DNA from: [Flexibacter] sp. ATCC 35103
GTDB taxonomy: Bacteria; Bacteroidota; Bacteroidia; Flavobacteriales; Flavobacteriaceae
DNA length: 64,000 nucleotides
Reading direction: 5' to 3'
NCBI RefSeq assembly: GCF_001975985.1
Contig: NZ_MTQF01000010.1
Location: 186,001-250,000, forward strand
In this document: piece after piece, positions 56,912 through 64,000 of the stretch
Numbering within the stretch: position 1 is the first letter of the stretch
Layout of the letters: every line of letters starts with the position of its first letter
Notes under the pieces: model-generated
The model's database searches: none
The model's input: only the letters and a program-made list of their open reading frames with translations
Told to the model about the DNA's origin: nothing
Translations under genes and position numbers: made by a program

Positions 56912-56919
56912 TATTTTTG
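56912..56919 (+). promoter_or_regulatory. -7 element TATTTTTG of the PIG-L operon
   Basis: An exact TAnnTTTG, whose last three bases are the in-frame TTG that would otherwise look like a start. The ATG at 56947 is 27 bases downstream. Confidence 0.6.
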
Positions 56920-56946
56920 AAGCTCTTTCAAACATTTAACTATACT

Positions 56947-59478
56947 ATGCGAAAAATTCAGATCCAGATTCTTCTTATTTTTTTAACAGGGATTTCCATT
57001 TCTTTTGCGCAACAACCACAAAAACCAAGTTCAGTAGAAATTTACAATCAAATCAAAAAATTAAATTTTTTAGGTTCAGTCTTATATGTTGCCGCCCATC
57101 CTGACGACGAAAATACACGTTTGATTGCGTGTATGGCAAATGAAATGAATGCCAGAACAGGTTATTTATCACTAACACGCGGTGATGGAGGCCAGAATTT
57201 GATTGGTCCGCAATTGCGCGAATTGTTAGGTGTTATAAGAACTCAGGAATTAATTGAAGCTAGAAAAATTGATGGCGGTGAACAGTTTTTTTCACGTGCG
57301 AATGATTTTGGTTACTCAAAAAATCCAGACGAAACCCTTGAAATCTGGGATAAAGATAAGGTTCTTGCTGATGTAATCTGGACCATTAGAAAATTTCAGC
57401 CGGATGTGATCATCAATAGATTTGATCATCGCTCTCCGGGTACAACACACGGACATCATACATCATCAGCAATGTTGAGTGTAGAAAGCTTTAAACTCAC
57501 AAACGATCCCAAAATATATCCCGACCAATTAAAATATGTGAAACCATGGCAGGTAAAACGTCAGTTTTTTAATCCATCATGGTGGTTTTACGGAAGCCAG
57601 GAAAAATTTGATGCCGCTAATAAATCTAAATTCACCAAATTAGAAACCGGAGTTTATTATAACGGAATTGGAAAATCGAATCAGGAAATTGCTGCTTTAA
57701 GCAGAAGCCGTCATCAATCGCAAGGTTTTGGAAGTACTGGTGCAAGAGGTCAGGAAACCGAATATCTGGAACTTATAAATGGTGATAATCCTAAAGAACG
57801 TGATAATTTATTTGATGGAATTGACACTTCATGGAACCGTGTTAAAAACGGAAAACCAATTGGAGATTTAATTACCGCTATTATCTCAAAATATGATTTT
57901 AGTAATCCATCAGCGAGTATTCCGGATTTAGTAAAAGCCTATTCTATGATTGAAGCGCTTGAAGATGACCACTGGAAATCTTTAAAGTCTGCTGCAATAA
58001 AAAATATAATTGCATCTTGTTCAGGATTGTATCTTGAAGCTGTGGCAAGCGAACAGGAAGCAACTCCGGGAAGTACCATTAAATTAAGTCTTGAAGCCAT
58101 TAACAGATCTCCTGTTGATATGCAATTGACAAGTGTAACGTCATTACCTGATAATAAAAACACTACTCAGAATATTGTATTAAAAAACAATAACGATCAA
58201 AAAATAAATTTACAAATTCAATTGCCCGGCAATATTGAATATACGCAGCCTTATTGGCTAAAAGAAAAAGCCAGCGTTGGGATGTATACGGTTTCAAATC
58301 AGGAAAATATTGGAATTCCGGATATTATAAGACAAGTAAAAGTACTTTTTAATATCAGCATAAATGGTATTGAAATTCCTTTTGAGCGTACCGTTGTTTA
58401 TAAATACAATGATGGCGTAAAAGGCGAAATGTACAATTTTCTGGATATTGTGCCTGAAGTAACTACTTCGATCTTAGAAAGAGTATTGATTTTTGGAAAC
58501 ACAAAAAGCAAAATGATTCCTGTAAAAGTACGCGCAGGAAAAGATGGCATTAAAGGAAATTTACAATTAGAATTACCTAGAAGCTGGAGTGTTTCTCCTA
58601 AAGAAATTCCTTTTGTTTTAGAGAAAAAAGGAAACGAGCAAATCTTTTATTTTGAGGTTACGCCGCCTGTAAACCCTGAAGAAGCAGTTGCAAAAAGCAT
58701 AGCAATAGTCGATAACAAACGCTTTGATAAAGATGAAACTATTATTGATTACGGCCATATAACCAAACAAATGGTCCTAAAACCAGCTGAATCAAAATGC
58801 ATTAGAATAGACTTAAAAACAAATGGCGATGCTATTGCTTATATTATGGGTGCCGGTGATGAAGTCCCGGAAAGCCTGGCTCAAATGGGATATAAAGTCA
58901 CAATCATAAAACCGGAAGAAATTACGCCAGAAAAACTGGATTCATTTAATGTAGTTATGACCGGAGTTCGTGCTTACAATACCGTAAATGCCTTGGCACA
59001 CAAGCAAAATATCCTTTTTAATTTTGTAAAAAGCGGTAAAAATATGATTGTGCAATACAATACATATGGCAAAACCGTTACCGATCAAATTGCGCCATAT
59101 CCTTTAAAAATTTCAAATGATCGTGTCACTGAAGAAAACGCCAAAGTTACTTTTCTCGCACCTAATCATCCTGTTTTAAATACACCAAACAAAATAAGCT
59201 CAAAAGATTTCGAAGGCTGGACACAAGAACAGGGTCTATATTATCCGGATCAATACGATTCTGCCTTCACTCCTATTATATCATCACACGATAAAGGTGA
59301 ATCTCCAAAAAATGGTGCCTTATTGGTAGCGCCGTATGGAAAAGGATATTACATTTACACTGGTTTGAGCTTTTTTAGAGAATTGCCCGAAGGTGTTGCC
59401 GGAGCGTACCGATTATTATCGAACATGATCTCTTTAAAACAGCCAGTTGAAGCTCCAAAACAAGAAATTAAGAAATAA
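56947..59478 (+). CDS. secreted PIG-L-family deacetylase with a glutamine-amidotransferase-like C-terminus
   Basis: The 843-residue protein has a signal peptide (MRKIQIQILLIFLTGISISF). The PIG-L domain has the metal motif AHPDDE (50-55) and the later HGHHTSS histidines, and removes acetyl groups from N-acetylglucosamine-type sugars. After a middle beta-rich region (about 380-620) the C-terminal 200 residues (about 640-840; AYIMGAGDEVPESLAQMG, VMTGVRAYNTVN, KNMIVQYNTYG) resemble a class I glutamine-amidotransferase/ThuA-like fold. The start is ATG 56947; a TTG at 56917 is part of the promoter. A 35-residue ORF and a sodium-solute symporter follow within 125 bp. Confidence 0.88.
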   Translation: MRKIQIQILLIFLTGISISFAQQPQKPSSVEIYNQIKKLNFLGSVLYVAAHPDDENTRLIACMANEMNARTGYLSLTRGDGGQNLIGPQLRELLGVIRTQELIEARKIDGGEQFFSRANDFGYSKNPDETLEIWDKDKVLADVIWTIRKFQPDVIINRFDHRSPGTTHGHHTSSAMLSVESFKLTNDPKIYPDQLKYVKPWQVKRQFFNPSWWFYGSQEKFDAANKSKFTKLETGVYYNGIGKSNQEIAALSRSRHQSQGFGSTGARGQETEYLELINGDNPKERDNLFDGIDTSWNRVKNGKPIGDLITAIISKYDFSNPSASIPDLVKAYSMIEALEDDHWKSLKSAAIKNIIASCSGLYLEAVASEQEATPGSTIKLSLEAINRSPVDMQLTSVTSLPDNKNTTQNIVLKNNNDQKINLQIQLPGNIEYTQPYWLKEKASVGMYTVSNQENIGIPDIIRQVKVLFNISINGIEIPFERTVVYKYNDGVKGEMYNFLDIVPEVTTSILERVLIFGNTKSKMIPVKVRAGKDGIKGNLQLELPRSWSVSPKEIPFVLEKKGNEQIFYFEVTPPVNPEEAVAKSIAIVDNKRFDKDETIIDYGHITKQMVLKPAESKCIRIDLKTNGDAIAYIMGAGDEVPESLAQMGYKVTIIKPEEITPEKLDSFNVVMTGVRAYNTVNALAHKQNILFNFVKSGKNMIVQYNTYGKTVTDQIAPYPLKISNDRVTEENAKVTFLAPNHPVLNTPNKISSKDFEGWTQEQGLYYPDQYDSAFTPIISSHDKGESPKNGALLVAPYGKGYYIYTGLSFFRELPEGVAGAYRLLSNMISLKQPVEAPKQEIKK

Positions 59479-59490
59479 AATATTCAGATT

Positions 59491-59598
59491 ATGGAAGCTA
59501 AAAAAACAAAAAAATGGAAAAAAAGCTACACTTACGTTTTGGTAGCTAACGCAATTTACATTGTGATTTTTTTCTTAATCATGCAATTATACTCATAA
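59491..59598 (+). CDS. 35-residue membrane peptide preceding the sodium-solute symporter
   Basis: This short ORF runs from ATG 59491 (12 bp after the PIG-L stop) to TAA 59598 (3 bp before the symporter ATG). It begins with a basic, Lys-rich stretch (MEAKKTKKWKKSY) and has one helix (VLVANAIYIVIFFLIMQLYS), inside-positive as a single-pass membrane protein. The tight spacing on both sides is strong evidence that it is coding. I suggest that it is a small subunit of the symporter, comparable in idea to small partners of SSS transporters (DUF4212-type), but no homology is claimed. Confidence 0.75.
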   Translation: MEAKKTKKWKKSYTYVLVANAIYIVIFFLIMQLYS

Positions 59599-59601
59599 CC
59601 T

Positions 59602-61326
59602 ATGCAACTATTTGATTGGATCGTACTTATTGTTACACTTTTATTTATTGTTGGGTACGGCTCCTGGAAAACTAAAGGAAGTAAAAACGTCGAGGATTTT
59701 ATTTTAGGAAACAATGAAACTCCATGGTATACTGTTGGGCTTTCCGTAATGGCGACACAAGCCAGTGCCATTACCTTTTTGTCAACTCCGGGACAAGCTT
59801 ATCATGACGGAATGGGTTTTGTGCAATTCTATTTTGGGTTGCCAATTGCTATGATTGTTATTTGTTTGACCTTTATTCCGTTATATCATAAAAATAAAGT
59901 CTTTACCGCTTATGAATTTCTAGAGAAACGATTTGACCTTAAAACACGTTCTCTCGCAGCAATTCTGTTTCTGGTTCAAAGAGGTTTAGGAACCGGGCTT
60001 ACCATTTATGCTCCGGCAATTATTCTATCAGCTCTTTTAGGCTGGAATTTGACTTTAATGAACATCATGATTGGTGTTCTGGTAATTATTTACACATTTT
60101 CAGGCGGAACAAAGGCGGTGAACGTGACTCAGAAACAACAAATGTTTGTGATTATGTCCGGAATGTTTATTACATTTTTCCTGATTTTGCATTATTTACC
60201 AAATGATATGACTTTTACAAGTGCATTGCATATTGCCGGTGCAAATGATAAAATGAATATTGTAGATTTCTCTTTTAATCCGGAAGAAAAATATACTTTC
60301 TGGAGCGGTATTACTGGTGGTTTTTTCCTTGCCCTCGCCTATTTTGGAACTGATCAGTCTCAGGTTGGGCGCTATTTATCAGGGAAATCAGTTCGCGAAA
60401 GCCAAATGGGTTTGATCATGAACGGACTTTTAAAAGTGCCAATGCAATTCTTTATTTTGTTAACCGGAGTTATGGTTTTTGTGTTTTTTCAGTTTAATCC
60501 TGTTCCGTTAAATTTTAATCCGAATAATAAGATTGTCATTGAAAAATCAGCTTATAAAGAAGAATATCATGCTTTAGAGAAAAAGCTAAGCACACTTTCA
60601 GAAGATAAAAAAGTAATTAATTTATTGTACATCGATCAGCTCAATCAGGATTTTGACAATCCTATTTTGCGAAAAGAATTAGTTACGCTGTCTAATAAAG
60701 AAAAAGACCTGCGTGATCGTGCGAAAGAAATTATATTAAAAGCAGATAGCAATAGCGAAACCAACGATAAAGATTATGTGTTTTTTCACTTTATCCTGCA
60801 TTATTTACCTAAAGGGCTTATTGGTTTATTATTGGCGGTAATTCTTTCAGCTGCAATGTCATCAACAGCATCAGGATTAAATGCTTTGGCCTCTACAACG
60901 GCGATTGATATTTATAAAAGAAATCTAAAAACCATAAAATCTGAGAAACATTATCTAAACGCTACTAAATTTTTCACCTTATTCTGGGGAGTTGTAGCCA
61001 TACTTTTTGCCTGTGTAGGTACTTTGTTTGAAAATTTAATTCAGTTGGTAAATATCATTGGGTCTATTTTCTACGGTACCGTTTTAGGAATTTTTTTAGT
61101 TGGTTTTTATCTGCGTCGTGTAAAAGCAAAAGCTATGTTTTACAGTGCTATAATTAGTCAAATGACTATATTTTTTATCTATTACTTTATGATTTACAAA
61201 CAGGAAAAATTAGGTTATTTATGGCTTAATTTTATTGGAGCAATGCTGACAATTGTATTGTCATTATTAATGCAGTTTCTGTTTTTTAAAAAAGAACCCA
61301 ATAATGATGAAGTTGTTTTAGAGTAA
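59602..61326 (+). CDS. sodium:solute symporter (SSS family)
   Basis: The 574-residue protein has about 13 predicted helices with an SSS fold (LFIVGYGSWKTKGSKNVEDF, FLGWNL region and LAYFGTDQSQVGRYLSG). An insertion of roughly 90 residues (about 300-390, EKSAYKEEYHALEKKLSTL...) between helices is hydrophilic and predicted helical. The substrate cannot be named; the association with PIG-L suggests an amino sugar or a glycan-derived product. A DUF805 gene follows after 30 bp. Confidence 0.92.
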   Translation: MQLFDWIVLIVTLLFIVGYGSWKTKGSKNVEDFILGNNETPWYTVGLSVMATQASAITFLSTPGQAYHDGMGFVQFYFGLPIAMIVICLTFIPLYHKNKVFTAYEFLEKRFDLKTRSLAAILFLVQRGLGTGLTIYAPAIILSALLGWNLTLMNIMIGVLVIIYTFSGGTKAVNVTQKQQMFVIMSGMFITFFLILHYLPNDMTFTSALHIAGANDKMNIVDFSFNPEEKYTFWSGITGGFFLALAYFGTDQSQVGRYLSGKSVRESQMGLIMNGLLKVPMQFFILLTGVMVFVFFQFNPVPLNFNPNNKIVIEKSAYKEEYHALEKKLSTLSEDKKVINLLYIDQLNQDFDNPILRKELVTLSNKEKDLRDRAKEIILKADSNSETNDKDYVFFHFILHYLPKGLIGLLLAVILSAAMSSTASGLNALASTTAIDIYKRNLKTIKSEKHYLNATKFFTLFWGVVAILFACVGTLFENLIQLVNIIGSIFYGTVLGIFLVGFYLRRVKAKAMFYSAIISQMTIFFIYYFMIYKQEKLGYLWLNFIGAMLTIVLSLLMQFLFFKKEPNNDEVVLE

Positions 61327-61846: not shown

Positions 61847-61940
61847 GAAAATTCTAATTCAAAAATTTATTACTTTAACCTTGTCCTAAACCATCATTCT
61901 TAGATTATAAAATATATTTTTAATTATTCTACAGCTTTTT

Positions 61941-62042
61941 TTGTCATTTCGAGGAAGGAGAAATCTTCGTAAGAAGCTCGACAAAGATTGGGTTTTCGTT
62001 ACGCAGTTACTCGCGAAGATTTCTCCTTCCTCGAAATGACAA
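61941..62042. repeat. 29-bp perfect inverted repeat
   Basis: The left arm 61941-61969 (TTGTCATTTCGAGGAAGGAG...) and right arm 62014-62042 (its exact reverse complement) surround 44 bases. The related pair at 63889-63979 has the same start GTCAT(C/T)TCGA(C/G)GAA. This is a dispersed flavobacterial element; the function is not known. Confidence 0.75.
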
Positions 62043-62207
62043 TGATTGTGGCTATTTTGTGTAAAAACCAAAATTTCTTAAGCACTTGATTTTAAACTTT
62101 GAGCATATCTTAAAAAAAGACTGCAAAATTTAAAAATTTAGATTCTACAGCAAAAGCTATATCTTTGAGAAAGTAACTATTTACAAATTAGCAAAATAAG
62201 CGTCATT

Positions 62208-63842: not shown

Positions 63843-63888
63843 CTATCTTATTTAGTATCTGCTTTTCTATACACAATCTTGTCATCTC

Positions 63889-63979
63889 GACGAAAGAGAG
63901 ATCACACAAAAAATTCCTTTTCTAAAAAAACCGATCTTTGGCGAGTTACGAGTGAGATCTCTCCTCCGTCGAGATGACA
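63889..63979. repeat. inverted repeat at the right edge of the window
   Basis: The arms TTGTCATCTCGACGAAAGAG (from 63889) and GATCTCTCCTCCGTCGAGATGAC (to 63978) pair imperfectly. It is related to the repeat at 61941-62042. Confidence 0.6.
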
Positions 63980-64000
63980 CAAATAACACATAAATAAAAA

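Follow-up and report, generated by a model that had tools for sequence, protein, structure and literature searches.

Short membrane proteins are encoded beside genes of the sodium:solute symporter (SSS) family in several described cases, namely DUF4212, DUF485/YjcH, DUF997, DUF3311 and the NCBIfam 'symporter small accessory protein'. These partners are longer than the peptide described here and mostly have more than one helix. Human SGLT2 has a single-TM auxiliary subunit, MAP17, whose helix lies on TM13, and SGLT2 transport requires MAP17, probably through effects on folding and localisation (accessible part of PMC10803289). Among other transporters, AcrZ (for AcrB) and MgtS and MgtR (for MgtA) are one-helix small proteins that bind, stabilise or tune the transporter (accessible part of PMC10710835), and KdpF is a one-helix small protein of the Kdp pump (PMC3618439, in the part available).

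Results

We analysed a small ORF in a 64 kb stretch of DNA, the whole of which is called the window below. The ORF lies on the forward strand at 59491-59598 (ATG to TAA) and translates to MEAKKTKKWKKSYTYVLVANAIYIVIFFLIMQLYS, a peptide of 35 aa. It starts 12 nt past the stop codon (59476-59478) of the upstream gene, and the ATG of the downstream gene (59602) stands 3 nt after the end of its own stop codon, as the original prediction of a 35-residue membrane peptide squeezed between PIG-L and symporter genes had stated. The sole hydrophobic stretch covers about residues 14-33 (59530-59589) and six lysines fall within residues 4-11, in agreement with the single transmembrane helix and Lys-rich N-terminus that had been read from the sequence.

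Pfam matches likewise bear out the identity of both neighbours. The upstream gene (56917-59478, forward strand) encodes a protein of at most 853 aa that matches the PIG-L domain (PF02585, E 1.1e-12) and likely starts at a later ATG near 56947. The downstream gene (59602-61326, forward strand) encodes the proposed partner, a sodium:solute symporter of 574 aa that matches SSF (PF00474, E 8.1e-42) and scores 236.8 bits with the SSF family model TIGR00813, against a cut-off of 184. Its nearest solved relatives by sequence are 5nv9 (entered as 'putative sodium:solute symporter', which we take to be the sialic acid symporter SiaT), the sodium/iodide cotransporter, SMCT1 and the SGLTs. The PIG-L neighbour at most hints at amino-sugar compounds as the symporter substrate. 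Symporter residues about 303-388 (window 60508-60765) form an insert, about 85-90 residues long and mostly hydrophilic, at a place where 5nv9 has about 6; it is seen both as a gap between two stretches matched to 5nv9 and in the alignment. Further downstream, the ORF translations of about 61880-62070 and 63880-64000 share similar Arg-rich strings, which suggests a dispersed intergenic repeat.

Judged by its conservation, the small ORF is a real protein-coding gene under purifying selection, since it has homologues across the genus and family and its pooled pN/pS is 0.27 in frame, while the two alternative frames give 1.14 and 0.98 (25 ungapped sequences, from the window and 24 of the named family loci described below). 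The C-terminal part is more constrained, with a pN/pS of 0.21 for codons 9-35 versus 0.63 for codons 1-8. When a peptide profile, which contains the window peptide itself, was run against the 1539 stop-to-stop ORFs of the window, the small ORF was recovered at E 5.3e-16 and the next best ORF at 0.0066. A chance ORF is ruled out by the conservation in genus and family together with the selection at the amino-acid level.

Searches with the single peptide sequence found homologues in 34 of the 37 own-genus genomes, own genome included, at E <= 1e-4, with no match at that threshold in G002, G020 and G034. At E <= 0.001, 288 of 397 own-family genomes and 182 of 237 genera had a homologue. The symporter lies downstream of the peptide in 58 of the 59 loci L001-L059; in the lone exception, L038, the contig ends less than 200 nt away on the symporter side. 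A second set, the named loci, was fetched by symporter similarity as the best 80 of 577 confirmed candidates and leans to close relatives (Flavobacterium, Tenacibaculum, Maribacter, Zobellia, Polaribacter, Aquimarina and others). The nearest of these loci suggest that the window itself comes from a Flavobacterium. A family peptide ends beside the symporter start in all 80, in a count that covered ORFs ending at that place; the start-codon rule shortens the L190 peptide as extracted, and its frame still matches at E 5.2e-13. In most of the loci read the two ORFs lie a few nt apart or overlap at stop and start codon, and no natural peptide-symporter fusion was met among the loci read, as noted in reading rather than by systematic search. 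Trp9, Tyr13 and Asn20 are invariant across 32 aligned peptide sequences. Peptide starts in the alignments were picked by eye, and the profiles A1, A2, A5 and A6 contain some of the sequences that they later recover. Several own-family genomes, many of them small, encode a shorter peptide, in many cases of 28-33 aa, which lacks the N-terminal Trp and whose ORF frequently runs into the start of the symporter gene (L122, L124-L128, L132-L134, L137 and L138).

Searches with the single sequence had left 113 genomes of the genus and family without a match. In 80 of these the co-occurrence of peptide and symporter was examined from the side of absence, by a profile search and a symporter search. The symporter was present (E <= 1e-60) in 45 of them. 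A profile match (E <= 0.01) appeared in 28 of the 80, with the symporter adjoining it in every case; the weakest of these matches (E 0.002-0.006) were accepted for lying beside the symporter. No profile match came from the 35 genomes that lack the symporter. In G208 the profile match runs across a TGA and the actual peptide is shorter, at 26 aa. Seventeen genomes had the symporter and no profile match: the symporter is partial, at or near a contig end, in three (G034, G210 and G334), and in 11 the usual place holds a peptide, about 28-39 aa long, that has diverged and was recognised by eye. In the other three (G123, G339 and G225) PIG-L and symporter are kept and no peptide was recognised beside the symporter, and a wider profile run over the rest of these three genomes gave nothing convincing (best E 0.107, in G339). 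These comparisons suggest that the peptide goes with the symporter rather than with PIG-L.

In a wider survey of the phylum, the peptide profile matched 61 and the symporter search 143 of 395 genomes. Twenty of the peptide match places were fetched, one inside the own family (L104) and 19 outside it, from which L103 (G651) was dropped as a false match inside a 498-codon ORF. Of the 18 genuine matches outside the family, 16 have the symporter, 36-59% identical, no more than about 60 nt downstream; the two without an adjoining symporter are L091 and L100. At L096 the symporter is broken into two ORFs. This locus, near 21.5 kb on contig C1 of G732, is one of two peptide-symporter pairs near both contig ends, the other lying near 3845.7 kb, and one symporter copy of G732 has an in-frame TAG.

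We also read the 5' side of 80 of the 83 outside-family symporter loci without an earlier profile match (G664, G789 and G728 being left out), using profiles that each omitted the family under test. In 65 of the 80 loci, from 15 of the 16 families, the best-scoring ORF was a peptide of this kind that immediately precedes the symporter, at E < 0.05; in none of the 80 loci did any other ORF pass this threshold. A weakly scoring hydrophobic ORF occupies the place in eight further loci, which are L284, L287 and L304-L309; the latter are all six f52 loci, each with only a weakly similar ORF there (E 0.11-1.7). No peptide ORF was found before the symporter in the remaining seven (L262, L280, L281, L295, L296, L297 and L310). 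A lack of conserved homologues before symporters would have refuted the original prediction, and this check did not refute it: genes of the same symporter subfamily are preceded by the peptide in its own and in other families of the phylum. Members match the profile, have one hydrophobic helix and share the core W-x3-Y-x2-[VL], ending F-[YW]-x2-[TM]-x2-[FYW], with the W in 68 of 71 and the Y in 68 of 70 aligned sequences. Their gene lies nearly always directly 5' of a gene of one SSS subfamily and turned up in none of the genomes examined that lack the symporter. The exceptions to this arrangement are five genomes with separated genes and seven in which no peptide was recognised despite the presence of the symporter (G123, G339, G225, G605 of f19, and G559, G579 and G587 of f39), from which it follows that the peptide is either not needed everywhere or too diverged to see.

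Two observations concern the surroundings of the peptide outside the family. Eight loci of f38, a family in another class of the same phylum (L089-L091, L093, L098 and L100-L102), encode a conserved protein of about 200-225 aa upstream of the peptide, which we take to be WbqC-like, its opposite-strand neighbour presumably being gltX-like. Eleven loci (L240, L242, L243 and L245-L248 of f17; L253, L255, L257 and L258 of f18) have a second small hydrophobic ORF of about 50-66 aa upstream of the peptide, with its stop 105-127 nt before the symporter start; for two of these ORFs the Pfam search yielded nothing better than E 0.09.

The separated gene pairs come mostly from f38. In G548 and G489 (L091 and L100) the symporter lies about 15 kb beyond the peptide on the same contig and strand, and the gene after the peptide is on the opposite strand, presumably an SLC13-like gene in the symporter's place. 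This separation predicted a distant peptide in G478 and G504, two genomes of the same f38 genus in which the symporter stands alone (L280 and L281), and it was found in both. In all four genomes peptide and symporter share contig and strand, with the peptide 14.6-15.3 kb ahead of the symporter; the peptide matches at E about 1e-20 and scores as strongly as the adjacent copies of G519 and G618; the search profile (A5) includes the peptides of G548 and G489 and excludes those of G478 and G504. Since one genus holds all four pairs, they probably go back to one rearrangement. Compared with each other, the four copies show pS of 0.04-0.33 and pN of 0.01-0.06. A further copy, in G713 (f62), lies 108 kb from a bare symporter (E 5e-6).

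Discussion

The co-occurrence, together with the loci that lack PIG-L, ties the peptide to the symporter, and we consider it quite probable that the peptide is a dedicated single-pass accessory subunit of one SSS subfamily, comparable to MAP17. The Lys-rich N-terminus would stay cytoplasmic, and the helix would pack on the exterior of the symporter through the conserved W-x3-Y, Asn/Tyr and aromatic positions. Bound there, the peptide may help the symporter to fold, to persist in the membrane or to reach full activity, and the abutting or overlapping ORFs would allow translation in matched amounts. The charge bias expected of an N-in helix, a surplus of positive charge on the N-flank over the C-flank, is clear in the named loci (68 of 79 peptides) and weak in other families (19 of 37). 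An AlphaFold2 model of a read-through peptide-symporter fusion had a mean pLDDT of 54.5 and a pTM of 0.53, too low to use.

The original prediction spoke of a small subunit or regulator of the symporter. Its link to the symporter has held, through the co-occurrence and the loci without PIG-L. A subunit seems the likelier of the two roles, though sequence data separate them poorly. As a regulator the peptide would act in trans on the symporter, as an inhibitor or as an adaptor or protector in its proteolysis, in the way of MgtR and MgtS for MgtA. Such peptides are known for other transporters (PMC10710835, in its accessible part), and the co-occurrence and the separated loci fit this role as well as they fit a subunit. 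The tight, often overlapping gene pair points instead to constant co-production, which would suit a subunit better, and we regard the regulatory role as unlikely.

Far less room is left for a cis-acting leader or translational-coupling ORF that controls the symporter gene through an inert peptide. The ORF is small and, in most loci read, ends a few nt from the symporter start or overlaps it, as such an ORF would, but selection acts on its amino acids, and intact, selected copies lie about 15 kb away in four genomes, followed in at least two by an opposite-strand gene. Intact and conserved far from the symporter gene, the peptide has been retained there as a protein, as a pure leader would not be, and would act in trans; the separated loci thus weaken this reading to the point where we hold it to be very unlikely.

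It is less likely still, to the point of being highly improbable, that the peptide serves the PIG-L protein or a system shared by PIG-L and symporter. PIG-L does lie upstream in 71 of the 80 named loci, but the other nine have the peptide with no PIG-L among the adjoining genes, and in f38 the large PIG-L protein is not upstream of the peptide (L097 carries a PIG-L-like gene of 289 aa on the opposite strand). Conversely, G123, G339 and G225 keep PIG-L and symporter without the peptide. The peptide loci without an adjoining PIG-L weaken the case for it as a partner, and we treat it as a neighbour. Finally, a small hydrophobic ORF often has no known partner, but that this one has an unrelated role and merely rides beside the symporter gene is scarcely credible given its position and its co-absence with one symporter subfamily across several families of the phylum, and given that no ORF adjoining the own genome's three other SSS genes (E <= 1e-5) scored at E < 0.05 (best 0.053, 4.8 bits).

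We lean slightly to a broader proposal: the whole symporter subfamily in the phylum may be two-component, with a co-encoded single-helix subunit that arose independently as a counterpart of the MAP17-SGLT2 pair and was missed by the scanned profile libraries for its shortness. In that case these symporters, when expressed or assayed alone, would be incomplete transporters, and the bacterial pair would offer a small, genetically tractable model for the need of some SSS/SLC5 transporters, SGLT2 with MAP17 among them, for a one-helix partner. Annotation would likewise gain a widespread protein family that has no model in the scanned libraries.

Comparison with known systems

No family model in Pfam, NCBIfam or PHROGs, no PDB chain and no open-licence paper was found that covers the peptide. 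Members of the peptide family (32 and 30 against Pfam and NCBIfam, and the 25 of A6 against NCBIfam only) gave no profile match, at the thresholds applied, to the known small SSS partner families (DUF4212, DUF485, DUF997, DUF3311 and the NCBIfam accessory protein); the best unrelated match had E 0.0027, and none was common to more than three members. The best PHROGs match was 0.014. Among the titles and abstract openings of the open-licence literature, no study treating the family was found; small-protein catalogues such as that of PMC11364881, in which the word 'symporter' does not appear, may hold the peptide sequence without a function.

The peptide resembles AcrZ, KdpF, MgtS and MgtR in size (about 30-50 aa) and in its presumed action on a transporter, and differs from them in that they belong to other transporter families, with no profile relation to the peptide found. 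With the DUF4212, DUF485, DUF997 and DUF3311 proteins it shares the general plan of a short membrane protein encoded beside an SSS gene. The likeness to MAP17 is that of a one-helix protein dedicated to a symporter of the SSS superfamily (SGLT2, SLC5), the bacterial contact being an expectation drawn from the pattern described above. MAP17 is longer and is not encoded beside its symporter, and it is eukaryotic whereas the peptide is bacterial; no PDB chain matched profile A2 at E <= 1 in a set that holds MAP17 chains through SGLT2-MAP17 entries (e.g., 8hb0). Small partners of transporters, SSS members included, are thus a known kind, and the new part is the peptide family itself, its spread through the phylum and its link to one symporter subfamily.
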